Source of the DNA: Ornithinimicrobium pekingense DSM 21552
GTDB taxonomy: Bacteria; Actinomycetota; Actinomycetes; Actinomycetales; Dermatophilaceae
Reading direction: 5' to 3'
Assembly (NCBI RefSeq): GCF_000421185.1
Contig: NZ_ATWJ01000014.1
Span: 1 to 64,000 of the forward strand
Length of the DNA: 64,000 bases
Positions 1,284-50,038 of the stretch are shown here, one piece after another. Both the position numbers and the translations under genes were made by a program. The stretch's first letter is position 1; each line of letters begins with the position of its first letter. The notes below the pieces were generated by a model. That model was given only the letters and a program-made list of their open reading frames with translations. It did no database searches and was not told the DNA's origin.

Positions 1284-3719
1284 TCAGGGAGTGCCCCTGC
1301 GTCCAACGCTGCCGATGGCCTGGAACAGCAGGGAGGGTCGCCCGCCGACGGAGTTGATGAAGATGGTGGTGACGGACAGGGCCATCGCGACCATCGCCCA
1401 CACCGGGTACACCAGCCCGGTGGTGGCCAAGGGGATGCCGACACCGTTGAACAGGAACGCCAGGGCGACGTTCTGGCGGGTGCGGCGGTAGCTGGAGCGA
1501 CTGATCGTCCGGGCGGTGATGACCGAGCGCAGGTCGTCGCGCACGACGATGATGTCGGCGGACTCGACGGCGATGTCGGTGCCGCCGCCCATCGCGATGC
1601 CGACGTCGGCCTGCATGAGGGCGGGGGCGTCGTTGATGCCGTCCCCGACCATGACGACGCGGGTACCGTCGGCCTGGAGGTCTCGGACGATCTCGGCCTT
1701 GCCCTCGGGCAGCACCCCGGCGCGGACGTCTTCGATGCCGAGCTGGGCGGCGACGTGGCGGGCGGCGCGTTCGTTGTCGCCGGTGACCAGCACCGGGTCC
1801 AGGCCGGCGCCGCGCATCTGGGCCAGGGCCTCGAGGGCGTCAGCGCGGATCTCATCCCCCAGGGCGATCACCCCGAGCGGTTCGCTGTCGGCGGCCACGG
1901 CCACGACGGTTCGCCCGGCGGCCTCCAGTCTGTCGATGGCTGCAGCGAGTTGGTCCAGGTTCACGCCCCGCTCGGTGAGGAACCCGGGGCGTCCAACCAG
2001 GACGTCGCGGCCGGCGACGCGGGCCATCACACCGAAGCCGGTGACGGACTCGAAGCTCTCCGCGTCCGTCACGGCGAGACCCCGGTCGGTGGCGGCGTCC
2101 ACGATGGCGCGGGCCAGGGGGTGCTCGGAGGAGGACTCGGCAGCCGCGGCGGTGGCGAGCATGCCGCCCTCGTCGACCAGTGCCTCGATCTCCCGGACGC
2201 CGGGCCGTCCCTCGGTCAGGGTGCCGGTCTTGTCCAGCACGATGGTCCGGACCTGTCCGAAGGTCTGGAAGGCCTCCCCGGTGCGCATGATGATGCCTAG
2301 GTCGGCGGCCTCCCCCGCAGCGCGCACGATCGCCAGCGGCGCCGCGATACCCACCGCGCACGGGTAGCCCATCACGAGCACGCCGAGGCCGGCGAAGACT
2401 GCGCGGCGCACGTCGGGCTCCCCGGCCAGCAGCCACGACCCGGCCAGCCAGCCGAGCAGCGCGAGCGCGGCGACGATCAGCACGGTGGGTGTGTAGACCC
2501 GCAGCACCCGGTCGACCAGGTGCAGGATCCCGGGCTTGAGCGCCCGGGCATCCTCCACGTGGCGCACCACCTGGGCCAGGAAGCTGTCGGTCCCGACCCG
2601 GGTCACCTCCACCAGCAGGGTCCCGGAGGCGTTGATCGACCCGCCGACGACCTCATCCCCGACGGCCCGATCCACCGGTACCGACTCACCGGTAACCAGG
2701 GACAGGTCGACGGTGGAATACCCGTCGCTGACCCGCCCGTCGACCGGGATCCGCTCCCCCGGACGGACCCGTACTAGGTCGCCGGCAGCGACCTCGGCGA
2801 TAGGGACGTCGCGCTCGGCACCGTCGCGGACCACCCGGGCGGTGTCGGGCTGCAGATCGAGCAGCTTGCGCACCGCCTGACTGGAGCGGGTCTTGACCAG
2901 CAGCGAGAGCCACTCGGAGAAGATGTGGTAGTTCGCCACCAGCACGGTCACCGCGAAGAACGGCGCCGTCGGGTAGTCCGGCAGCAGGTTCGTCAGACCG
3001 ATGACGCCGCCGGCGATGCCCGCGAACGCGCCAACCTCCAGCAGCACGTGCTGATTCAAAATGCGCCGGCGCGCGGCCTGGTAGGCCATCCGCAGGATGT
3101 GCGGGGCGACCCCGAACACCACAGCCAGGGCCAGTGCCCCGGTGATTGACCCGGCTGCCGCGTCACCGATCAGCCCGGTCTCCCGGGCCGTGTAGGCCAG
3201 CGCAGCCGGGGCGATGATCAACAGCGCACCAAGAGCCGCGCGCGTCCTGCCGGCGGGACGCACGATGGCGTAGGACACCGGCACCATCAGGGCTACCACC
3301 GACGCCGGCACCAGCACCGACCAGATGCCGGAGACCTCCAGGATCAGCGCGATCGCGGCCAGGCTCGCCGCGACCGCGGCAAGCAGCCGCTTGCCCTCCC
3401 GGACGAGGTCGGCTTCCTCATCCTCGAACGGACGCAGCTTGCGCGGGTCGTACAGGTCGTAGCCAATGTCACGCAGCGTGGCCAGGATGTCCTCAGGTGC
3501 GATCAGCGCCGGGTCGTAGTCCACCAGCGCCTGCTCGTGGGTGAGGCTGACCGCGACCTGATCCACCCCCGCCTGGCGGCCCAGGGCCTTCTCGATCGTG
3601 CCGGTGCACAACGAGCAGTGCAGGCCCGCGATCCGAGCCCGAATCCGGGCGTGCCCGGCCAAGTGGCTCGGCTCCTCCGCCCACAGCTGCTCGGTACCGC
3701 TGTCGGCCGGAGCGGTCAT
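1284..3719 (-). CDS. Heavy-metal P1B-type ATPase with YPC motif, 811 aa
   Basis: Membrane pump expected to move a soft metal ion across the membrane with ATP. Visible in order: an N-terminal HMA domain with CSLC near residue 36, membrane helices, the actuator TGESVPV, the phosphorylation site DKTGTLT, the P1B signature [17 protein letters not shown], and C-terminal helices. The transmembrane metal site is unusual: the normal CPC is GYPCAVG, the usual YN of the next helix is FN (FLFNGVG) and the usual MxxSS is MALSV. Substrate therefore cannot be assigned to Cu, Ag, Zn or Cd by the standard motifs. The MerA gene 1.9 kb away suggests Hg(II), which is inference. It overlaps the upstream HMA gene by 4 nt and shares its MerR-type promoter. 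Confidence 0.9.
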
Positions 3720-3949
3720 CGAGACGGCCCCTGGATATCACCGGTGACCTGGTAGCCGGCGGTCTCTATCTGGGCCGCCAACGCTGCATGGTCGGTCACG
3801 GCCGAATCGAAACGCACCCGCACCTGGCCGGTGCGGTGGTCCGCGGTCGCCTCGCGGACCCCGTCCAGCCGGCGCAGCACCTTGCCCACGCGCTGTTCAC
3901 ACCCGCTGCACGTCATGCCCTCGACCTGCATGATCACGTTCTCCACCAT
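3716..3949 (-). CDS. HMA-domain metallochaperone, 77 aa
   Basis: A single heavy-metal-associated domain with GMTCSGC near residues 11-17, the two-Cys loop that binds a soft metal ion, in a ferredoxin-like fold of normal length. The role is probably to pass the ion to the N-terminal HMA domain of the ATPase, whose gene starts within its stop codon (ATGA overlap). ATG at 3949 is preceded by GGAGGAA (minus strand). Transcription should start at the MerR-type promoter at 4065-4096. CopZ-like and MerP-like labels are both possible; there is no signal peptide, so a periplasmic-type MerP is unlikely. Confidence 0.88.
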
Positions 3950-4064
3950 CTGTTCCTCCGGTAGCAGTAGTCACTGAGCCACGTGCCGTGACGCCTCGCA
4001 CAGACCGCCCTCGAGGGCCTCCTGCGAGGTCCCGCGCACGGGGTTGCTCGGCGATGATCAGACC

Positions 4065-4096
4065 ACGGTAGACCTTCCACTCGACTGGAAGGTCAA
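4065..4096 (-). promoter_or_regulatory. MerR-type promoter/operator of the HMA-ATPase operon
   Basis: On the minus strand there is TTGACC (4096-4091), a 20-bp spacer and TACCGT (4070-4065). The spacer holds a perfect inverted repeat GACCTTCC-N8-GGAAGGTC (4071-4094). An overlong 19-20 bp spacer filled by a dyad is the hallmark of MerR-family activation. The same dyad recurs before merA. Confidence 0.85.
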
Positions 4097-4126
4097 GTCC
4101 TCCTGTGCGGACACACCGCCGCTGTC

Positions 4127-4149
4127 GACCTTCCAGGCGCAGGAAGGCT
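4127..4149 (+). promoter_or_regulatory. Imperfect third MerR-type operator
   Basis: GACCTTCC (4127-4134), a 7-nt centre, then GGAAGGCT. It matches the operators at 4071 and 5536 except for one base lost from the centre and changes in the right arm. It lies 55 bp upstream of the broken Cys-rich metal protein gene and probably drove it. Decay of the site parallels decay of the gene. Confidence 0.6.
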
Positions 4150-4202
4150 CAGAGTGGGTATCGTCCGTATCCCCGCGCCTCAGGGGCCGACCGGAAGGAC
4201 CG

Positions 4203-4516
4203 GTGCCTCTCGTCGACAACCGCACCGAGCAGCTGATCAACGTCCTCGCCGAGTGCGTCGTCAAGTGCGAGGCGCGGGCGAACGACTGCGCCAGCCAGGG
4301 CAACGCCGACCTCGCTGGCTGCCTGACCCTGTGTGTCAGGCGTGCATCCCGCTGCTCGCCCGCGGCAGCCAGTTCTCCACCTAGCTGTGCCAGACCTTCG
4401 CCGACGCCTGCGAGCAGTGCGTGCAGGCGTGCGAGTGGACTGGCATGACCGAGTGTGCCGAAGCCGGCCGCAAGGCCGCCGAAGCCTGCCGTCAGATGGC
4501 TGGTGCCGCCACCTGA
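4203..4516 (+). pseudogene. Broken four-helix-bundle Cys-rich metal-binding protein
   Basis: Conceptual repair gives a protein of about 104 aa beginning VPLVDNRTEQLINVLAECVV, with the CxxxC-rich helices typical of four-helix-bundle copper-binding/storage proteins (DUF326 type). Reading is broken twice: a shift in the GTGTGT run at 4331-4336 moves the frame, and a TAG at 4382-4384 stands where CAG (Gln) would be expected. Expected Cys positions are also replaced (CEARAND, AEAGRKAAEAC). Two separate disruptions plus lost ligands argue for true decay rather than one sequencing error. GTG at 4203 follows AAGGAC. Confidence 0.75.
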
Positions 4517-4550
4517 CCCGCTCGCCCGGGGCGGCCGGTGCAGCCTCAGC

Positions 4551-4991
4551 TCAGGGTTGGGACTGCACCGGCGCCTCCACTTTCGCCTCCACCTTCTGCC
4601 GGACATGCTCGATGAGCTGGCAGGTGGTCCCCGCGTCCACCGGCGGCAGGTTGTCCGCCTCGGCGGCGAGCTCCACGAGTTGGCCGCGCAGGTCCTGTAG
4701 CTCGGTGATGCGCCGGTCGATCGTGCTCACCTGCGCGTCGAGCACCCCGCGGACATACGTGCAGGGCGCCTCGCCCCGCTCCCGGAACCCGAGGATCTCT
4801 TTGACCTCATCGAGAGTGACCCCGAGCCGCTGGGCGGTGCGGATGAACCGCAACCGGTCGACGGCGTCCTCGTCGTAGATGCGGTAACCCGAAGGGGTGC
4901 GCCCCGGGTCGGGCAGCAGCCCGATCGACTCGTAGTACCGGATCGTCTTCGGGTTCACGCCCAGCCGGCCAGCCAGCTCACCAATCCTCAT
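4551..4991 (-). CDS. MerR-family metal-responsive regulator, 146 aa
   Basis: N-terminal winged helix-turn-helix (MRIGELAGRLGVNPKTIRYY), dimerisation coiled coil at about 80-112 and a short C-terminal metal loop. Only two Cys are visible at metal positions, C77 (EAPCTYV) and C124 (TTCQLIEH, with a nearby His); the third Cys of the Hg-binding MerR triad is absent. That suggests a different ion or a Cys/His site. It is a separate paralogue from the regulator at 5109. Sites at 4071 and 5536 are plausible targets, but which regulator binds which site cannot be read from sequence. Confidence 0.85.
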   Translation of the reverse strand: MRIGELAGRLGVNPKTIRYYESIGLLPDPGRTPSGYRIYDEDAVDRLRFIRTAQRLGVTLDEVKEILGFRERGEAPCTYVRGVLDAQVSTIDRRITELQDLRGQLVELAAEADNLPPVDAGTTCQLIEHVRQKVEAKVEAPVQSQP

Positions 4992-5108
4992 CCCAACCTC
5001 CCGGTCACAACCTTACAGCCAGCGGGAAGGGTGGTCCCCGTTGACACGAGTCGGACCGGCCCACATGCGGAACGTTCTCGGTGCTGGCACCGGACGCCGC
5101 CGACGCGA

Positions 5109-5498
5109 TCAGAGGTAGCGGCAGACGGTCGTGGCGTCGCAGCTGGTCGGGTCGACCGTGGCGGCATCGTCGCGGAGGCGGGCGACGGTGTGCCGTAGTG
5201 CCTGCAGGTCGGCGATCTGGCGGTCCAGGTCGCCCAGGCGGGCCTCGAGCAGGTCTTGGACGTGCTGGCAGGGCGCGACTCCGGCGTCGCGGATGTCGAG
5301 GACCTGACGGATCTGGGCCAGAGTGAGCCCAGCGGTTCGGCTGCGGCGGATGAAGTCCAGGCGCGCCAGAGCCTCCGGGGCGTAGTCCCGGTATCCGCCG
5401 GCGGTGCGCTCGGGTGCGGGCAGGAGCCCGGCTTCTTCGTAGAACCGCAGCGTCTTGGTGGTGGTGCCGCTGACTTGGGCCAGCTCACCGATCCGCAC
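5109..5498 (-). CDS. merR: MerR-family regulator, probable Hg(II) sensor, 129 aa
   Basis: Winged helix at the N-terminus (MRIGELAQVSGTTTKTLRFY), a coiled coil, and three Cys at C77 (APCQHV), C120 and C126 (ending CRYL), matching the three-Cys arrangement of Hg-type MerR sensors. Divergent from merA, with the operator at 5536-5559 between them, so it should both repress itself and activate merA. Length is slightly short of proteobacterial MerR (144 aa) but normal for actinobacterial members. The Hg assignment rests on the Cys count and the neighbour, not on a direct test. Confidence 0.82.
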   Translation of the reverse strand: MRIGELAQVSGTTTKTLRFYEEAGLLPAPERTAGGYRDYAPEALARLDFIRRSRTAGLTLAQIRQVLDIRDAGVAPCQHVQDLLEARLGDLDRQIADLQALRHTVARLRDDAATVDPTSCDATTVCRYL

Positions 5499-5533
5499 GG
5501 TGACCCCTTGCTCGATCCTTTTCGATGTTCACC

Positions 5534-5565
5534 TTGACCTTCCCCTGTACTGGAAGGTCCATTGT
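5534..5565 (+). promoter_or_regulatory. MerR-type promoter/operator of merA
   Basis: TTGACC (5534-5539), a 20-bp spacer, then CATTGT (5560-5565). The spacer carries the dyad GACCTTCC-N8-GGAAGGTC (5536-5559), identical in both arms to the operator at 4071-4094. It lies between divergent merR and merA. Confidence 0.82.
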
Positions 5566-5602
5566 GACCTCTGGAGACGTGCGACGCGAAGGATGGTGTG
5601 AG

Positions 5603-7006
5603 ATGGGTGAGAACTACGACGTCGATCTGGCCGTGATCGGCTCCGGGGGTGCTGCCATGTCGGCGGCCATTGCGGCCAGCCAGGCCGGCAAGAGCGTTGT
5701 GCTGATCGAGCGCGGCGTCCTGGGTGGCACGTGCGTGAACATCGGCTGTGTGCCGTCCAAGACGCTCCTGGCGGCCGCCGGAGCGCGGCACGCCGCACTC
5801 ACCAACCCCTTCGCAGGCGCTCCAACGTCCGCCGGGCCGGTGGATCTGGGCGCCCTGGTCGCCCAGAAGGACGCGCTGATCGCGCGCCTGCGCGAGGCGA
5901 AGTACGCCGACGTGGCCGCCGCCTACGGCTTCGAGGTCCGCCCGGGCCAGGCCACCTTTCTGGACAAGGACACCCTGGCCGTCGACGGCCAGGCGCTGCG
6001 GGCCCGGGCCTACCTGATCGCCACCGGCTCCACCCCCGCCGTCCCGGACGTGACGGGCCTGGACTGCGTGGACTGGCTCACGTCCACCACGGCGATGGAG
6101 CTGCTCGAGCTGCCGGAGTCCCTGGTCGTCATCGGCGGCGGCTACGTCGGGATGGAGCAGGCCCAGCTGTTCGCCCACCTCGGCGCCCGGGTGTCGCTGG
6201 TCGGTCGCCTGGCGCCCCACGCCGAGCCGGAGCTGGCCCAGGGCCTTCGGGAGATCTTCGCCGACGACGGCATCAGCGTGGTCGAGGAGCACGCCACCGC
6301 GGTGGCCACTGACGTCGGCCCTTCAGGACAGGACGTCGTGGTGAGCACCGCCTCTGGCGCGCAGGTGCGCGGAGCACGGCTGTTGGTGGCCACCGGGCGC
6401 GTCGCGCGCACCGACGGTCTCGACCTCGCCGCTGCCGCGGTGGACGTGAACGAGCGGGGCTTCGTCGTGGTCAACGAGACCCAGCGCACCAGCAACCCGC
6501 GCATCTACGCCGCCGGTGACGTCTCGGGGGCCGCCCAGTACGTCTACGTCGCCGCCGCCGGCGGTCGGGCCGCCGCGCTGAACGCCCTGGCCGACGACGA
6601 CGGGGCCACGCCAGCACGCGTGGACTACACCGGTTTGCCTGCCGTCGTGTTCACCCGGCCCCAGCTGGCCTCGGCGGGGCTGACAGAGGAAGAGGCCCTC
6701 GCCCGCGGCCACGCGTGCGACTGCCGGGTCCTGGACCTGTCCGACGTTCCCCGGGCGCTGGTCCAGCACGACACCAGGGGCGCGGTGAAGCTCGTCGCTG
6801 ACGCCACTACCGGCAAGGTCCTGGGCGTGCACGCCCTAGCCGACGGCGCCGGGGAAATCATGCTGGCGGCCACCTACGCCATCAAGGCCGGCATGACCGT
6901 TGACGAGCTGGCTGACACCTGGGCGCCGTACCTGACCATGGCCGAGAGCCTTCGCATCGTCGCCGGCCTCTTCCGCAACCAGATGGCGACGTCCTGCTGT
7001 GCCTGA
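5603..7006 (+). CDS. merA: Mercuric reductase (MerA-type flavoprotein disulfide reductase), 467 aa
   Basis: Reduces Hg(II) to volatile Hg(0) with NADPH and FAD in the cytoplasm. Seen: the FAD Rossmann motif GSGGAAMSAA, the redox disulfide GTCVNIGCVPSK, the NAD(P)-binding VVIGGGYVGMEQA, YAAGDV for the second FAD contact, and the C-terminal vicinal pair SCCA, which in MerA passes Hg to the active site and separates it from lipoamide dehydrogenase. There is no N-terminal HMA domain. ATG at 5603 follows GAAGGA; an upstream in-frame ATG at 5525 lies in the operator and is rejected. Neither merB nor merT is in the window; the ATPase operon may supply transport. Confidence 0.92.
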   Translation: MGENYDVDLAVIGSGGAAMSAAIAASQAGKSVVLIERGVLGGTCVNIGCVPSKTLLAAAGARHAALTNPFAGAPTSAGPVDLGALVAQKDALIARLREAKYADVAAAYGFEVRPGQATFLDKDTLAVDGQALRARAYLIATGSTPAVPDVTGLDCVDWLTSTTAMELLELPESLVVIGGGYVGMEQAQLFAHLGARVSLVGRLAPHAEPELAQGLREIFADDGISVVEEHATAVATDVGPSGQDVVVSTASGAQVRGARLLVATGRVARTDGLDLAAAAVDVNERGFVVVNETQRTSNPRIYAAGDVSGAAQYVYVAAAGGRAAALNALADDDGATPARVDYTGLPAVVFTRPQLASAGLTEEEALARGHACDCRVLDLSDVPRALVQHDTRGAVKLVADATTGKVLGVHALADGAGEIMLAATYAIKAGMTVDELADTWAPYLTMAESLRIVAGLFRNQMATSCCA

Positions 7007-16471: not shown

Positions 16472-16483
16472 CCACCCCTCTCC

Positions 16484-16611
16484 CGACCGACGACGCCGGG
16501 TGCACGCCCCACCCGCGACCGAGGACGCCGGGTGCACGCCCCACCCGCGACCGACGACGCCGGGTGCACGCCATACCTTCCACCGAGGACCGCGGGTGCG
16601 CGGTCACGCTG
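16484..16611 (-). repeat. 32-bp-period tandem repeat array A1 (4 units, minus orientation)
   Basis: Units start at 16484, 16516, 16548 and 16580, each exactly 32 bp and contiguous. Core on the plus strand is ACCGACGACGCC followed by GGGTGCACGCC. Units 1-3 are nearly identical; unit 4 is degenerate. The array begins 13 bp after the kbl stop and is inverted relative to array A2, from which it is separated by 17 bp. Confidence 0.93.
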
Positions 16612-16628
16612 AGGGGCCGGACGGAATG

Positions 16629-16756
16629 TGTACACACCACGTCGTCGGTCGGCCGGGAGCTGTACACACCGCGTCGTCGGTCGGCCGGGAGCTGTACACA
16701 CCACGTCGTCGGTCGGCCGGGAGCTGTACATACCACGTCCTCGGTGGGGATATACT
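16629..16756 (+). repeat. 32-bp-period tandem repeat array A2 (4 units, plus orientation)
   Basis: Units start at 16629, 16661, 16693 and 16725, 32 bp each. The core is TGTACACACCACGTCGTCGG then TCGGCCGGGAGC. The shared GTCGTCGGTCG tail shows it to be a diverged, inverted relative of array A1. The last unit carries GTCCTCGG in place of GTCGTCGG and runs into a TATACT -10-like sequence. Confidence 0.93.
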
Positions 16757-16819: not shown

Positions 16820-18127
16820 GTGCCGCCCTTGTCACCCGTCCAGTCCTACCAGCGCCTCTTCGCGCTCACCGGGCCGCTCTACGTCCTGATCGCCTTCGTC
16901 GGACGCATCCCGCTGGCGATGTCCCAGATCGCCTCCCTCCTCGCGGTCACCGCGGCGACCGGCTCCTACACCGCAGGCGGCGTCACCGCCGGTGCCCTCG
17001 CCATCGCCAACGCGGTCGGTGCGCCCGTCGCCGGCAGCCTCACCGACCGGCTCGGCCAGCGGCCCGTCCTCCTCGTCCAGAGCGTCGTCGGCACCGTGGG
17101 GCTGGGCGTCCTGGCGTGGATGACGATGACGCACGAGGCGGGCGCGGCCTGGTGGCCGCTGCCGGTGGTCGCGGCTCTGGGCGGGGCGTTCGTCCCGCAG
17201 GTCGGGACCATGGCCCGGGTGCGCTGGCGCCCCATCAGCCGTCGCGGCAGCGACGACCCCCGCGTGATGGACGCCGCCTTCTCCTACGAGGGCGCGGCCG
17301 ACGAGGCGTCGTTCGTCCTCGGCCCGGCCGTCGTCGGGGTCATCGCCGCCGTCGTCGACCCCGTCGCCTCGCTGGTGGTCGCGGCCGTCCTGCTCGGCGC
17401 CTTCGGCACCTGGTTCGCCGTCCACCCCACCAGCGCCCTGGTCGGCCCCGCCCCGACCAGCTCGACCGCCGTGGCCCGCCTGCTGACGCCCGCGCTGGTC
17501 ATCCTCGCCGCCACCCAGCTGTCCATCGGCATGGTCTTCGGCTCGGTCCAGACCGGCACCTCGGTGCTGGCGACCGAGGCCGGCATGCCGGGGATGACTG
17601 GTCTGCTCCACGCCCTCCTGGGAGTGGGCAGCGTGCTCGCCGGGCTCGCGGTCGTGGCCGTGCCCGAGACCTTCCCGCACGCCCGGCGCCTGCGCGTCTT
17701 CACGACCGCGCTCGTCGTCCTGTCCCTGCCCCTGCTGCTCGTCGGCTCGCTCGCCGGGCTCACGCTCGCGCTGCTCGGCCTGGGTTTCGCGATCGCGCCG
17801 TCGATGATCACCACGTTCGCGCTCGCCGAGCGCATCACCTCCGTCCGCCGCCTCGGGGCGGCGATGACCCTGCTGGCCGCGGCCACGGGGGCCGGGTATG
17901 CGGTGGGTGCCGCCCTGGCGGGCCGGTTCGCCGACCTGGCCGGTCACCGTCCGGCCTTCGCCGTCACCGTGGGCGCGACCCTCCTGGCTGCGGGCCTGGC
18001 CTGGGGCGGAGCCCGGCGCCTGCGCGCCTCCGTGCAGGCGCGGACCGCCACCGACGGTGGCGAGGCGCTCGCGTCAGGCTCGGCAGGGCACTCCCCCGAG
18101 CCCGTGGACGCGCTCGCGCGTTCCTGA
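16820..18127 (+). CDS. MFS transporter, 435 aa
   Basis: Twelve predicted membrane helices in two halves; helix 2-3 loop GSLTDRLGQRP matches the MFS motif GxxxDRxGRR. It resembles uncharacterised actinobacterial drug-efflux MFS proteins with the mid-protein YEGAADEASFVLGPA segment. The substrate is unknown. GTG at 16820 follows GAGAGG; GTG 16802 and TTG 16829 are in-frame alternatives. The 32-bp repeat arrays form its upstream region. A bulged hairpin follows its stop. Confidence 0.85.
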   Translation: MPPLSPVQSYQRLFALTGPLYVLIAFVGRIPLAMSQIASLLAVTAATGSYTAGGVTAGALAIANAVGAPVAGSLTDRLGQRPVLLVQSVVGTVGLGVLAWMTMTHEAGAAWWPLPVVAALGGAFVPQVGTMARVRWRPISRRGSDDPRVMDAAFSYEGAADEASFVLGPAVVGVIAAVVDPVASLVVAAVLLGAFGTWFAVHPTSALVGPAPTSSTAVARLLTPALVILAATQLSIGMVFGSVQTGTSVLATEAGMPGMTGLLHALLGVGSVLAGLAVVAVPETFPHARRLRVFTTALVVLSLPLLLVGSLAGLTLALLGLGFAIAPSMITTFALAERITSVRRLGAAMTLLAAATGAGYAVGAALAGRFADLAGHRPAFAVTVGATLLAAGLAWGGARRLRASVQARTATDGGEALASGSAGHSPEPVDALARS

Positions 18128-41245: not shown

Positions 41246-41294
41246 GTCGCAGGACTCTACGTCGGACGGCCGACAAACCTCCAACCCTTATCGA

Positions 41295-41374
41295 CCGACG
41301 ACGCCGTCTGCACGCCCCCACCCCCACCGACGACGGCGTATGTACGCCCCCACCACCACCGAGGACGGTCGTCC
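41295..41374 (-). repeat. 32-bp-period tandem repeat array B (2.5 units, minus orientation)
   Basis: Units start at 41295, 41327 and 41359, contiguous, period exactly 32 bp. Plus-strand core is CCGACGACGCCG followed by TGCACGCCCCCACC; the second unit has ATGTACG in place of CTGCACG. Same family and orientation as array A1. It lies between the divergent ABC-ATPase and nfo promoters. Confidence 0.9.
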
Positions 41375-41385
41375 GGTCCTCTGCC

Positions 41386-41401
41386 TAGAGTGGCGGGTAT
41401 G
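41386..41401 (+). promoter_or_regulatory. Leaderless-type -10 element of nfo
   Basis: TAGAGT (41386-41391), 7 nt, then ATG at 41399. No ribosome-binding site. Array B ends about 12 bp upstream, where the -35 box would lie. Confidence 0.6.
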
Positions 41402-42193
41402 ACGATCAGGATCGGTGCGCACGTGGACCAGGCCGACCCGGTGGCCGAGGCGCTCGCACGGGGCACGACGCTCGTGCAGCACTTCCTCGGCGACCCGCAG
41501 GGGTTCAAGGGACCGGAGGTCCGCTATCCCGGGGGCGCCCCGGCGCTGCGTGCCGCGGCGGAGGAGGCCGGGGTCGACCTCTACGTGCACGCGCCCTACA
41601 TCGTCAACGTCGCCACGACCAACAACCGCATCCGCATCCCGAGCCGCAAGCTCCTGCAGCAGCACGTCGACGCGGCGGCCGAGATCGGGGCCAAGGGGCT
41701 GATCGTCCACGGCGGGCACGTCAACAAGGGCGACGACCCGGCCAAGGGTTTCGACAACTGGCGCAAGGCGATCGAGGCGACGGACCTCACGGTGCCCGTG
41801 CTCATCGAGAACACCGCCGGTGGCGACAACGCCATGGCCCGCCGGCTGGAGCGGATCGAGGGCCTTTGGGCAGCGGTGCAAGCGGCGGACGGTGCGGAGA
41901 ACGTCGGCTTCTGCCTCGACACCTGTCACGCGTGGGCCGGAGGCATCTCGCTGACCGAGGCCGTCGAGCGGATCCACGCCATCACCGGCAGGATCGACCT
42001 CGTCCACGCCAACGACAGCCGGGACGGGTTCGACTCGGGCGCGGACCGCCACACCAGCTTCGGCGCGGGCCAGCTGGACCCCGATGAGCTGGCCAAGGTC
42101 GTCCGCGACGCCGGGGCGCCGGTGATCTGCGAGACCCCTGGTGGCCCCGAGGAGCACCAGGCCGACTTCGCCTGGCTCCGCGACCGGGTCTGA
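41399..42193 (+). CDS. nfo: Deoxyribonuclease IV (AP endonuclease, Nfo family), 264 aa
   Basis: Zinc-dependent AP endonuclease for base-excision repair, a TIM barrel. Seen: GAHVDQA at the start, DLYVHAPYIVNVAT, GLIVHGGHVNKG, VLIENTAGG, CLDTCHAWAGG and LVHANDSRDGFDSGADRH, then VICETPG, giving the His/Asp/Glu ligands of three zinc ions. Unusual setting: bracketed by repeat arrays B and C in inverted orientation. Confidence 0.93.
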   Translation: MTIRIGAHVDQADPVAEALARGTTLVQHFLGDPQGFKGPEVRYPGGAPALRAAAEEAGVDLYVHAPYIVNVATTNNRIRIPSRKLLQQHVDAAAEIGAKGLIVHGGHVNKGDDPAKGFDNWRKAIEATDLTVPVLIENTAGGDNAMARRLERIEGLWAAVQAADGAENVGFCLDTCHAWAGGISLTEAVERIHAITGRIDLVHANDSRDGFDSGADRHTSFGAGQLDPDELAKVVRDAGAPVICETPGGPEEHQADFAWLRDRV

Positions 42194-42197
42194 GGGC

Positions 42198-42420
42198 GCA
42201 CCACGTCCTCGGTCGGGTGGGGGGGGGTCGGGTGGAGGGCGTGCACCCGACGTCGTCGGTCGGGTGGAGGGCGTGCACCCGACGTCGTCGGTCGGGTGGA
42301 GGGCGTGCACCCGACGTCGTCGGTCGGGTGGAGGGCGTGCACCCGACGTCGTCGGTCGGGTGGAGGGCGTGCACCCGACGTCGTCGGTCGGGTGGAGGGC
42401 GTGCACCCGACGTCGTCGGT
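42198..42420 (+). repeat. 32-bp-period tandem repeat array C (6 units plus a degenerate leader)
   Basis: Six units starting at 42241, 42273, 42305, 42337, 42369 and 42401. The first five are identical 32-bp units: GTGCACCCGACGTCGTCGG followed by TCGGGTGGAGGGC; the sixth is cut at the array end. A degenerate copy with GTCCTCGG and a G9 run precedes them (42198-42240). The array fills the gap between the nfo stop and the convergent sixA stop at 42423. Confidence 0.95.
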
Positions 42421-42422
42421 GA

Positions 42423-42938
42423 TCAGGCCCGGGCGGTGTGGAAGGCGACGAGCCGGGCCTGGCCGCTGTCCAGCTCGGCCCAGTCGACGTCGAGGGTCAG
42501 CACCGCGCAGCTCGCCGTCGGGACGTGGTCCTCGACGGCGTCCAGCGCGCGTCGGTCGGAGCGCTGCTGGTCGGCGAGCCCCGCGGTGACGATGCCCATC
42601 ACCGGCTGGTGCCCCACCAGCCACAGCGTGGCCGTCTCCTCCGGCACCTCGCGGACGGCGTCGAGCACCTGGGCGGGGCCCCCGTCGTAGAGCCCGCGAC
42701 CACCCCATACCTCGACGTCGGGCACCCCGGCCCCGGCCAGCAGCTGCTCGGTCGTCTGCCGGGTGCGGGCCGCAGGCGATGACAGCACCAGGTCGGGCAG
42801 GAGCTCCTCCTCGGCGAGCCACCGGCCGAGCACCTGCGCGTCGGCCACGCCGCGCGGCGCGAGCTCGCGGGAGTAGTCACCCTGGGGGTGCGACTGCTCG
42901 GCCTTGGCGTGCCGGACGACGACGAGCGTGCGGGTCAT
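42423..42938 (-). CDS. sixA: SixA-type phosphohistidine phosphatase, 171 aa
   Basis: Histidine phosphatase superfamily, short branch. Seen: VVVRHAKAEQ (catalytic RHG variant) at residue 6, SSPAARTRQTTEQLL near 53 and VGHQPVMG with the second His near 108. SixA removes phosphate from His of phosphotransfer proteins. ATG at 42938 has TAGCGT 6 nt upstream (42950-42945). Its stop lies 3 bp after repeat array C, so the array could serve as a transcription end. Confidence 0.9.
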   Translation of the reverse strand: MTRTLVVVRHAKAEQSHPQGDYSRELAPRGVADAQVLGRWLAEEELLPDLVLSSPAARTRQTTEQLLAGAGVPDVEVWGGRGLYDGGPAQVLDAVREVPEETATLWLVGHQPVMGIVTAGLADQQRSDRRALDAVEDHVPTASCAVLTLDVDWAELDSGQARLVAFHTARA

Positions 42939-47534: not shown

Positions 47535-47613
47535 GGGTGCCAGTCTAAGGTCGGGAGGCCGACCGCCCGGACGGGCCCGGGAGCCGACAGCCGGGCTCGT
47601 GCGTCGCACCGTC

Positions 47614-48093
47614 ATGTCACCGTGGCCAGCCTCCGCGACCACCCGCGCCCTGCGTGCCGCCACCACGGCCGTCGTCGCGATGTCGCTCTCGTCCTGCACC
47701 TTCAGCAGCCCGGGCCGCGAGCCCGCGGAGGGACCGCTGGCCGAACGGCATACCTGGGGAGGCCTGTGTGCCGAGGGAGCGTGCTTCAGCACGCTGCTCG
47801 TGGAGGCTGACGGGACCTGGACCTACGAGGACGAGCGGGGATCGACGAGGGGCGAGCTGCGGCCGCGCCAGCTGGACCGGGTCCACGCCGCGGTCGGTGC
47901 CACCGACCTGGGGTCGGCTCCACGGCACGAGGGGCTGTGCGAGGCCGACCGGGACGGCACCTCGGTCCGGTACGGGTGGGCGGCACCGGACGGCTGGCGG
48001 ACGGCGTCCTCGTGCGAGGTGCAGGTGGACCCGCGGGACCCGCTGGTACGGGCGCTCCCGCCGCATACCCTCAGGAGTATCCTGGACCCATGA
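47614..48093 (+). CDS. Small putative lipoprotein, 159 aa
   Basis: N-terminal hydrophobic stretch TTAVVAMSLSSC with a lipobox-like LSSC (Cys at about 27), then a soluble domain with four further Cys (GGLCAEGACF, GLCEAD, SSCEVQ) that could form two disulfides outside the cell. No family recognised. ATG at 47614 or GTG at 47599. Its TGA overlaps the ATG of the next membrane protein gene, so they are coupled. Divergent from gatC. Confidence 0.7.
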   Translation: MSPWPASATTRALRAATTAVVAMSLSSCTFSSPGREPAEGPLAERHTWGGLCAEGACFSTLLVEADGTWTYEDERGSTRGELRPRQLDRVHAAVGATDLGSAPRHEGLCEADRDGTSVRYGWAAPDGWRTASSCEVQVDPRDPLVRALPPHTLRSILDP

Positions 48094-49169
48094 GCGAGAG
48101 CGGCATTCCGGGCCGCGTCGTGACGGCCCTCGTCGGTGCAGGGCTCGTCGACCCCCAGCGGGTCGACGCAGCCGAGTCCGTGGTCGAGCAGACGCTCGCC
48201 ACCCTTCCCCAGCAGGAGCAGGCAGCGGCCCGCCCGCGCGTCGGGCCCCGCCTCACCGAGGTGGGCGCCTACGCCGGGGCAGCACTCGTCGTGGCTGCCG
48301 TCATCCTGCTCGGCGCGCAGTACTGGGGCGACCTCAGCCCCCTGCAGCGCACCCTGCTGCTGGCGGCCGTGGCCGCCGTCCTCCTCGCCGGTGCGGTCAC
48401 GCTCGTCCGCGTGGCCGGCGGGTCGTGGCGCGCGCCGACCCGGGTGGGCCTGCGGGTCCGGCTGCTGGCCGGGACCCTCGTGGCTGCAGCCGCCGTCTCC
48501 GCCGGGGTGGCGCTGGGCAGCTGGGTCTACGACGCCACCGTCCCTCCGGCGTCCTTCGACGAGCACAACCTGTCGATGACAGCCGGCGTCGGGCTGGCGC
48601 TGGTCGTGCTGGTCGGTGGCTACCTGCTGGTGCCGTCGGTCCTGCTCCACCTGGCCCTCGGCGCCGCGACCGTGATGCTGCTGACGAGCGTCTGGCTCGG
48701 TGAGGGCGACGGACGCGAGCTCGTGCGCGGCGGGATCACCCTGGCCGTCGCGGGCGGCTGGCTGCTCCTGACCCGCCGGGGCTGGGCGGAGCGCACGGCG
48801 GGGTCCGGCGTGGGCGCGCTGCTCCTGCTCCTGGGTGCGCAGCTGCTGCTCGAGCACGACAACCCCGGTTGGGCGCACGGCGCGACCCTGGCCGTGGCCC
48901 TGGGGCTCTTCGGCCTGTACTGGTGGCGCGGCGAGTGGCCGTTCCTGGCTGTCGGGGTCCTCGCCCTGACGATGGCCGTGACCGAGGCGCTCGTCGAGTG
49001 GACCGAGGGCTCGCTCGGCGCCGGTGGCGCCGTGCTGGTGGCGGGCCTGACGCTGCTGGCCGCCTCGGGCGGCGCGGTCCTGCTGCGTCGCCGGCGCGAG
49101 CACGACCACGCCGACCGGCCGGACCGCCCGGGCCGCTTCCATCTCGGCCGACGCGAGCGGCACGCCTGA
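48090..49169 (+). CDS. Multi-pass membrane protein (DUF2157-like), 359 aa
   Basis: About ten hydrophobic helices after a soluble N-terminal helix bundle (VVTALVGAGLVDPQRVDAAESVVEQTL), the arrangement of DUF2157-like proteins; ends with an Arg/His/Asp-rich tail. No transporter or enzyme motif. Translation is coupled to the preceding lipoprotein gene by ATGA. A hairpin follows at 49205. Confidence 0.75.
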   Translation: MSESGIPGRVVTALVGAGLVDPQRVDAAESVVEQTLATLPQQEQAAARPRVGPRLTEVGAYAGAALVVAAVILLGAQYWGDLSPLQRTLLLAAVAAVLLAGAVTLVRVAGGSWRAPTRVGLRVRLLAGTLVAAAAVSAGVALGSWVYDATVPPASFDEHNLSMTAGVGLALVVLVGGYLLVPSVLLHLALGAATVMLLTSVWLGEGDGRELVRGGITLAVAGGWLLLTRRGWAERTAGSGVGALLLLLGAQLLLEHDNPGWAHGATLAVALGLFGLYWWRGEWPFLAVGVLALTMAVTEALVEWTEGSLGAGGAVLVAGLTLLAASGGAVLLRRRREHDHADRPDRPGRFHLGRRERHA

Positions 49170-49204
49170 GCGGTCCTCTCCCGCCCCTGCCGATGAGTCC
49201 GCGT

Positions 49205-49233
49205 CCTCTCACGGGTCTGACACCCGTGAGGGG
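49205..49233 (+). terminator. Hairpin terminator
   Basis: CCTCTCACGGGT (49205-49216), a 5-nt loop, ACCCGTGAGGGG (49222-49233): 12-bp stem with one G-T pair, 35 bp after the membrane protein stop. Confidence 0.65.
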
Positions 49234-49267
49234 CCGGACCGTCCGGCCGGGAGCACAGGAGACGACC

Positions 49268-50038
49268 ATGACCCGCCTGAGCAGCGTGATGCTGGGCACC
49301 ACCGACCCCGACCGGCTGCACGCCTGGTACACCGCGGTGGTGCCCCCCGAGACCGATGTCCGCATGGGCGACTACCGCATCCTGGGCTACGCCCGTGGGG
49401 TCTATCTGTTCATCGACCCCCGCGACGACGTGCAGCCTCGGCACCCCGACCCTGCCCGGACCATCCTCAACCTCGAGGTCGACGACGCCCGTGCCGTGGC
49501 CGCCCGGGTGGAGGAGCAGGGCGGGACCTGGGCGGCGCCGCTCGAGGACCGCGACGGCTGCCTCTTCGCCACCGCCAAGGACCCGGACGGCAACTACGTC
49601 CAGGTGATCCAGCTCAGCGACGCCGAGCGCGCCGCGATGCAGGGGACGGACGGACCCCTGCCCGGCGGGCTGCTCGCCGACGAGGCCTTCAGCAGCTTTG
49701 CGGTCGCCGACCTGGAGGCCGCCCGGCGGTTCTACGCCGGGACGCTCGGGCTGGACGTGCGGGAGGAGGCGATGGGGCTGCTGAGCATCGGCCTCGGCGG
49801 CACCCGGGTGATGGTCTACCCCAAGGAGGACCACGTCCCGGCGACCTACACCGTCCTCAACCTCCCGGTCGCCGACGTGGAGGCGGCCGTGCGCGCCCTC
49901 ACCGATCGGGGCGTGACGTTCCAGCGCTACGCCGGCTTCGAGCAGGACGAGCTGGGCATCGTCCGCGACGAGGGCCCGCAGATCGCCTGGTTCGCCGACC
50001 CGTCCGGAAACGTCCTCTCGGTGCTGTCACGGGTCTGA
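49268..50038 (+). CDS. Two-domain VOC (glyoxalase/dioxygenase-like) protein, 256 aa
   Basis: Two vicinal-oxygen-chelate domains: residues 1-118 (LGTTDPDRLHAWYTAVVPPE, ending TAKDPDGNYVQVIQL) and 133-250 (FAVADLEAARRFYAGTLGLDV, ending WFADPSGNVLSVLSRV). Metal ligands of glyoxalase I are not all conserved, so the role may be binding or resistance rather than catalysis. ATG at 49268 follows AGGAGACG. Single gene, convergent with the glutaredoxin-like gene. Confidence 0.88.
   Translation: MTRLSSVMLGTTDPDRLHAWYTAVVPPETDVRMGDYRILGYARGVYLFIDPRDDVQPRHPDPARTILNLEVDDARAVAARVEEQGGTWAAPLEDRDGCLFATAKDPDGNYVQVIQLSDAERAAMQGTDGPLPGGLLADEAFSSFAVADLEAARRFYAGTLGLDVREEAMGLLSIGLGGTRVMVYPKEDHVPATYTVLNLPVADVEAAVRALTDRGVTFQRYAGFEQDELGIVRDEGPQIAWFADPSGNVLSVLSRV

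Follow-up and report, generated by a model that had tools for sequence, protein, structure and literature searches.

What are the inverted arrays of short tandem repeats that stand on both sides of an nfo-like gene in Ornithinimicrobium pekingense DSM 21552, and what might they do for the genome that carries them? The window, i.e. the whole 64-kb stretch of DNA that was analyzed, lies on contig 14 of this genome (G000; 3.85 Mb, 15 contigs), and an earlier note, made from its letters alone, had reported four arrays with a 32-bp period at two places within it. Tandem Repeats Finder recovered period 32 at 16484-16572, 16629-16745, 41294-41368 and 42226-42420, and the window holds 22 matches to the word ACGTCGTCGGT at up to one mismatch, where 3.6 would be expected, a number reached by 0 of 100 shuffles, confirming all four. 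Units are read here on the strand that gives ACCG first, opposite to the strand used in the earlier note, and genes are our own calls throughout.

Table 1. Repeat arrays and associated features in the 64-kb window (strand: the one reading ACCG first for arrays).
Feature	Coordinates	Strand	Description
C-rich, G-poor leader	16472..16485	+	Between the stop codon of an aminotransferase-type gene and array 1
Array 1	16486..16572	+	Three strong 32-bp units ('minus' block of the earlier note); degenerate continuation to 16611
Array 2	16627..16745	-	Four units; ACCG end toward the start of an MFS gene at 16820 (Pfam)
Array 3	41294..41348	+	Two strong units, degenerate third to 41374; between the start of an ABC gene and nfo
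nfo-like gene	41399..42193	+	Pfam AP_endonuc_2; reversed relative to conserved neighbors
Array 4	42191..42420	-	One unit 47 bp apart, plus six units at 32-bp steps

The positions and the period given earlier held, while the strong units of arrays 1 and 3 end before the extents first reported, the remainder being degenerate, and array 4, earlier taken as one regular block, keeps its 32-bp steps except at its offset first unit (Table 1). The layout of a minus-oriented block on the left and a plus-oriented block on the right, in the convention of that note, holds at both places. Core to core, arrays 1 and 2 are 54 bp apart. The gene ahead of array 1 is presumably kbl-like, and array 4 fills the space between the stop codons of nfo and of a histidine phosphatase gene (42423-42938; Pfam), reaching to within 2 bp of the latter; arrays 2 and 3, pointing toward the starts of the MFS and ABC genes, are exceptions to a tendency of the ACCG end to face a stop codon. 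An Rfam search of the window returned three tRNAs only, and no family match to the arrays.

Across the genome, the arrays form one dispersed family, whose unit consists of a 23-bp core (core A, ACCGASGACGYSGNGYGCACGCC) followed by a spacer of nine C-rich bases. Single core matches with up to three mismatches number 304 in G000, compared with 39 for a backward control pattern, and core pairs 32 bp apart number 138, compared with 0 for the control. Among the matches listed, G000 holds at least 55 arrays with 184 units (37 regions plus the window), counting two weak single units, one of which is the sole array of region L074; region L090 has no arrays. Successive units are 32 bp apart in 122 of 129 cases, 33 bp in six and 47 bp in one. 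With first units left out, spacers agree at 0.81 within arrays and 0.53 between them, and cores at 0.93 and 0.78, respectively, although the likeness of cores between arrays is partly imposed, because cores served to detect the arrays. Spacers of 9 bp that are alike within an array also set the family apart from CRISPR, with its long variable spacers and identical repeats. Array length varies, both here and in the relatives G118 and G121. In G000, many of the units most distant from the C-rich flank are of a ACGTCCTCGGT type (16/53 first units vs 5/53 last units).

Related genomes keep the step and carry other cores. At up to one mismatch, core A has more than five matches in none of the other 185 of 186 family genomes (53 genera; 30 congeners); a strict pattern of three core A units, blind to other cores, gave only two unrelated matches in the GTDB collection, which may omit the species itself. 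Matches in Gordonia and Thermoanaerobaculia are not members of the array family, and neither is the one match among viral contigs, identical in sequence to the Gordonia genome match; a plasmid search gave two nfo-like matches. A second core (core B, ACCGRGCGTCGCNYRTGGTTGCC) forms 32-bp pairs in 9 of 31 genomes of the genus, with 0 in the controls: its two-unit matches number 138 in G118 and 2 to 14 in the other eight. Together, G118 and G121 hold 62 arrays (five of them single units) with 214 units in 40 regions, stepping by 32 bp in 149 of 152 cases, and 5 of 11 G121 regions correspond to G118 array sites. A third core (core C, ACCGGMCGCGGCTTGTGGTTGC or a variant) makes up four intergenic arrays of period 32 within 320 kb of G113. 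In G116, the nearest of the sampled relatives as judged by nfo, 320 kb that include the counterpart of the window show no period-32 array. The three cores fall at three places on a two-gene tree, in which some nodes are weak, G116 is placed by nfo alone and G121 is left out. The earlier note had asked whether relatives would show random orientation and no 32-bp period, and the opposite was found: array-bearing relatives keep both and differ in the core. Its concern that the repeats might be confined to one assembly is borne out for arrays with the exact core, which among the 186 family genomes occur only in G000, and not for period and orientation, which recur in relatives.

The polarity of neighboring arrays is strict at short range. 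Whenever adjacent arrays lie less than 1.5 kb apart, a limit chosen in the analysis, they run toward each other in the ACCG-first reading, in 35 of 35 pairs from three lineages (14/14 in G000, 19/19 in G118/G121 and 2/2 in G113, where strands were read from consensus units); between 1.5 and 2.6 kb, pairs with other polarities are seen (L219, L209, L224 and L080, the last with an array inside a gene). The closest pairs, moreover, are spaced in a restricted manner. Core-to-core gaps below 60 bp measure 1, 1, 2, 2, 3, 3, 12, 12, 13, 13, 13 and 45 (= 13 + 32) bp in G118/G121, and 1, 12, 27, 33 (= 1 + 32), 33 and 54 bp in G000, so that 12/12 and 4/6, respectively, belong to a class of 1-3 or 12-13 bp modulo 32 (nominal p = 2e-10 and 0.007, for classes picked after the data were seen). 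The two classes are about one helical turn apart. Misfits are the 27- and 54-bp gaps of G000 and, beyond the 60-bp limit, the wider gaps of L215 (121 bp) and L097 (328 bp). The inner units of close pairs are no more identical to each other than random units, which argues that such pairs have neither been selected as hairpins nor arisen by recent inverted copying. The earlier proposal of a dispersed, oriented, constant-period family under a DNA-level constraint is supported.

Most arrays also hold a defined position relative to genes. Among 107 multi-unit arrays counted as intergenic, 78 turn their ACCG end toward a stop codon (38/50 in G000 and 40/57 in G118/G121; together p = 2e-6) and 29 face a gene start; between tandem genes only, the bias toward the sense direction is modest (39/59, p = 0.018). 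Genes followed by a sense array have no strong stem within 70 nt behind the stop codon (0/32 in G000, 0/29 in G118 and 0/7 in G121), compared with 25%, 25% and 18% of the other genes with room in these genomes and 30% in G116; pooled, this amounts to 0/68 vs about 31/128, the latter rounded from percentages. Rank tests of stem scores between array and other genes gave p = 0.0003 in G000 and p = 0.096, which is not significant, in G118. The absence is partly one of occupancy, because an array behind the stop leaves little room, but strong stems beyond the arrays are also rare (2/53 and 1/57). Orthologs of sense-array genes in G116 carry a strong stem in 5 of 10 cases, not clearly above the 30% baseline; two of these five keep their own stem before the array in G000, and at the other three, including the gene before array 1, G000 has an array instead. 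Six arrays start more than 60 nt behind the stop: four with a strong hairpin between, one with another repeat (L201) and the array of L081. The L201 repeat (~2925-3020, G118) is itself a tandem array, with a ~22-bp unit beginning ACCGGCCGCACGG.

The arrays themselves do not appear to act as RNA structures. Folding of 53 arrays on both strands found no conserved fold (mean z -0.44 and +0.11), and upstream partner arms for a hairpin, with 9-11 of 11 positions matched, occur at 14/53 arrays and at 142/1590 control places. Most of these 14 arms are simply the partner array of a close pair; the single-array exceptions are C10:30301, C11:91987 and C15:61468. An RNA polymerase pause consensus, considered as another candidate, fits cores A and B by eye, and was set aside, as chance in GC-rich DNA could give such a fit.

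One orthologous site links the three cores. Behind the gene of an ABC-transporter ATPase (L084), 32-bp arrays that read ACCG first in the sense of the gene are present in 10 of 29 congeners, with core A in G000, core B in eight genomes and core C in G113; G116 has no ortholog of this gene, and a match in G129 lies outside the comparison. In G121, the sense units were identified by eye, the repeat finder giving an opposite array further on. A hairpin, also judged by eye, stands between the stop codon and the array in 9 of the 10, i.e. here the array follows a hairpin and does not replace it. Either an old site was kept while the core was swapped genome-wide, or the site was colonized several times. 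Among the 36 G000 genes with a sense array, this one alone also has an array in the compared regions of G118/G121, a frequency that is near chance by itself. At the same locus (L084, 3719-4750) and at L224 (3389-4246), a gene is bracketed by inward-facing arrays, which have different cores in G000 and G118; we take this gene to resemble AbiEi/DUF559-type proteins, and its L084 copy in G000 has no Pfam match. In G113, the region behind this ABC gene holds two arrays, separated by ~1.1 kb.

The earlier statement that all arrays lie between genes is true of the window; elsewhere in G000, four were found in open reading frames. Two of them lie in an E2 acyltransferase, one in each linker beside its E3-binding domain (L095; Pfam domains at 7-79, 182-215 and 266-491), one is inside a called gene (L080), and one is in a stretch in frame with the beginning of a PP2C-phosphatase-like protein (L081); the last was counted as intergenic, since gene calling starts that gene later. 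All six 33-bp steps of G000 are in open reading frames, and the intergenic arrays of this genome hold to 32 bp. The link between the 33-bp step and reading frames belongs to G000, because the deviating steps of G118/G121 (two of 33 bp and one of 31 bp) are intergenic by our gene calls.

Taken together, a near-invariant step, a core that is largely uniform within a genome and specific to a lineage, free spacers and a phased dyad are what would be expected of a sequence-specific protein lined up on one face of the helix, while the position behind stop codons, the polarity and the missing hairpins suggest that transcription at gene ends is affected. We therefore favor, with confidence just short of an even chance, helix-phased sites for a postulated sequence-specific DNA-binding protein, which would co-evolve with the core and would mark or end genes. 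The 32-bp unit, at about three helical turns, would place the bound molecules on one face of the DNA, and since two arrays often meet tail to tail, at a dyad with a set spacing modulo one helical turn, the complex would probably be built symmetrically outward from there. Its likeliest task would be that of a polar boundary at the gene end, a roadblock-type terminator or insulator, perhaps assisted by Rho via the C-rich strand. The list of roles in the earlier note (protein-binding array, terminator, nucleoid site) had included such a reading. The four in-frame arrays count against a roadblock, which would be harmful there.

That note had also suggested that a mobile element captured nfo, and inverted arrays do flank single genes at several places, as would be expected of transposon ends with a gene such as nfo for cargo. 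Histidine phosphatase, nfo and ABC genes follow one another in one direction in G116 and G106 (the latter by eye), and from 7.4 kb on the window keeps the gene order of G116, except for genes that have no ortholog there, with nfo alone reversed, between the inverted arrays. Since nfo keeps the same two neighbors in both relatives, its capture can be dismissed, for this gene only, and its reversal is consistent with an inversion through recombination between the inverted arrays. Moreover, in 18 of 33 close pairs (G000 and G118/G121) fewer than 100 bp, containing no gene, separate the arrays, and the bracketed genes vary between loci and seem ordinary on inspection by eye (Pfam was applied to nfo and the L084 gene only), which leaves the transposon highly improbable. 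A selfish, mobile or locally amplifying satellite, inserting or surviving mainly behind genes and of no function to the host, deserves more weight, and we hold it to be unlikely, if marginally less so than the termination model considered next. It would account for the patchy distribution (arrays in G000, none in 320 kb of G116), for dispersed copies that reach even into protein linkers, and for the variable array length. Against it, sites persist between species (the 5 of 11 G121 regions shared with G118), cores are largely uniform genome-wide where spacers are local, and a RAYT-type transposase (Y1_Tnp), the only type searched, is absent from 16 of 16 genomes, with the control positive in 5 of 14. 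A little weight passes from the protein-binding reading to the satellite, because the link of 33-bp steps with reading frames holds in G000 only.

Arrays could also be Rho-dependent terminators, in which the C-rich, G-poor leader and the spacers serve as rut and arrays grow since a longer rut terminates better. The base composition is in keeping with this: sense leaders of G000 (n = 25) are 67% C and 15% G, vs 43% C and 37% G after 62 genes that lack an array, the short stretches from stop to array are overall 67-68% C and 12-15% G, vs 41-43% C elsewhere, and C exceeds G in the sense 3' regions of 30/31 G000 and 23/26 G118 array genes, vs 19/37 and 11/21 of the others. In addition, all 5 genomes checked have Rho, and translation would mask Rho-type arrays within reading frames. 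Nevertheless, the degenerate recognition of rut needs no 23-bp core, fixed 32-bp step or phased dyad, and the 3' regions of array genes are less structured in G000 only, those of G118 not differing significantly from non-array genes in G content (p = 0.27) and folding energy (p = 0.91). The C-rich flank is found on the ACCG side also at arrays that face gene starts or lie within genes; since it occurs without a gene end, this flank is part of the element, and it does not prove a rut site on its own. We consider Rho-dependent termination improbable as the primary explanation.

Helix-phased protein sites at gene ends, as we favor them, have their closest published kind in the constant-length, variable-sequence satellites of Bacillus, as these are portrayed in the main text of Subirana & Messeguer (PMC8161180). 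Those satellites, of 52 nt and 20-21 nt, are constant in length and species-specific in sequence, share short conserved words, and are dispersed in arrays of few units and variable length; the authors propose a protein that requires a constant repeat size, and regard constant-length, variable-sequence bacterial repeats as a puzzle without known function (PMC8161180). Our arrays are alike in a length that is fixed per group (32 bp in 122/129 and 149/152 steps, and in the four G113 arrays) and in a group-specific sequence with shared words (cores A, B and C). They differ in occurring in a GC-rich genus that is actinobacterial by gene content and, at 32 bp, fall outside both length classes of the Bacillus paper. 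Searching the main text of PMC8161180 turned up nothing on downstream or stop-codon position, orientation, termination or intergenic placement, and among the matches listed, open-license PMC papers contain no description of 32-bp arrays at gene ends. Position at gene ends, polarity, a phased dyad and cores that differ between lineages at one orthologous site are what the present arrays add to the Bacillus satellites.

Other systems share single traits with them. REP/BIME elements, which are associated with RAYT, are dispersed at the 3' ends of genes, come in inverted pairs and have species-specific sequences; our arrays differ in having no conserved hairpin (mean z near 0 for 53 arrays) and in genomes without a Y1_Tnp gene. 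The arrays of polar protein sites behind a gene that stop polymerase at eukaryotic Pol I terminators, i.e. the Sal boxes of TTF-I, offer a functional analogy, with no homology claimed, and the bacterial protein is only postulated. Rut sites, going by their description in PMC6407284, are stretches of RNA with C in excess of G and with C residues regularly spaced every 11-13 nt. The C-rich, G-poor stretch behind the stop codon resembles these, whereas a fixed 23-bp core, a 32-bp step and a dyad are foreign to them.

The arrays make the satellite puzzle testable, through their place at gene ends, their polarity, their helical geometry and one orthologous site at which the core differs between lineages, with period and direction kept. 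This points to a protein that should be recoverable by using the core as bait, and perhaps to gene termination or insulation by means other than a hairpin or a plain Rho site. It is conceivable, though we would put it well below the protein-binding reading itself, that the genus harbors an undescribed class of gene-end boundaries, in which tail-to-tail, phased 23-bp sites replace hairpin terminators and change together genome-wide with the specificity of a fast-evolving, postulated protein.

Several minor observations were made alongside. Within the window, called genes at 47599-50038 and 1284-7006 have no match in the compared stretch of G116, in a neighborhood that is otherwise collinear, and are possible insertions. 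The word ACGGCATACC (GGTATGCCGT) is enriched in intergenic DNA of G116 (L139-L154), with 24 occurrences in 37 kb; a wider pattern of this word also occurs in genes (41/70 matches). In two genomes from other families of the order, G399 and G499 (L159, 1486-1577; L163, 1498-1598), intergenic repeats made of 15- and 17-bp half-units contain CGTCCCCGG words; the half-units sum to 32 bp, and the period-32 matches at the order level look like such 15 + 17-bp repeats.
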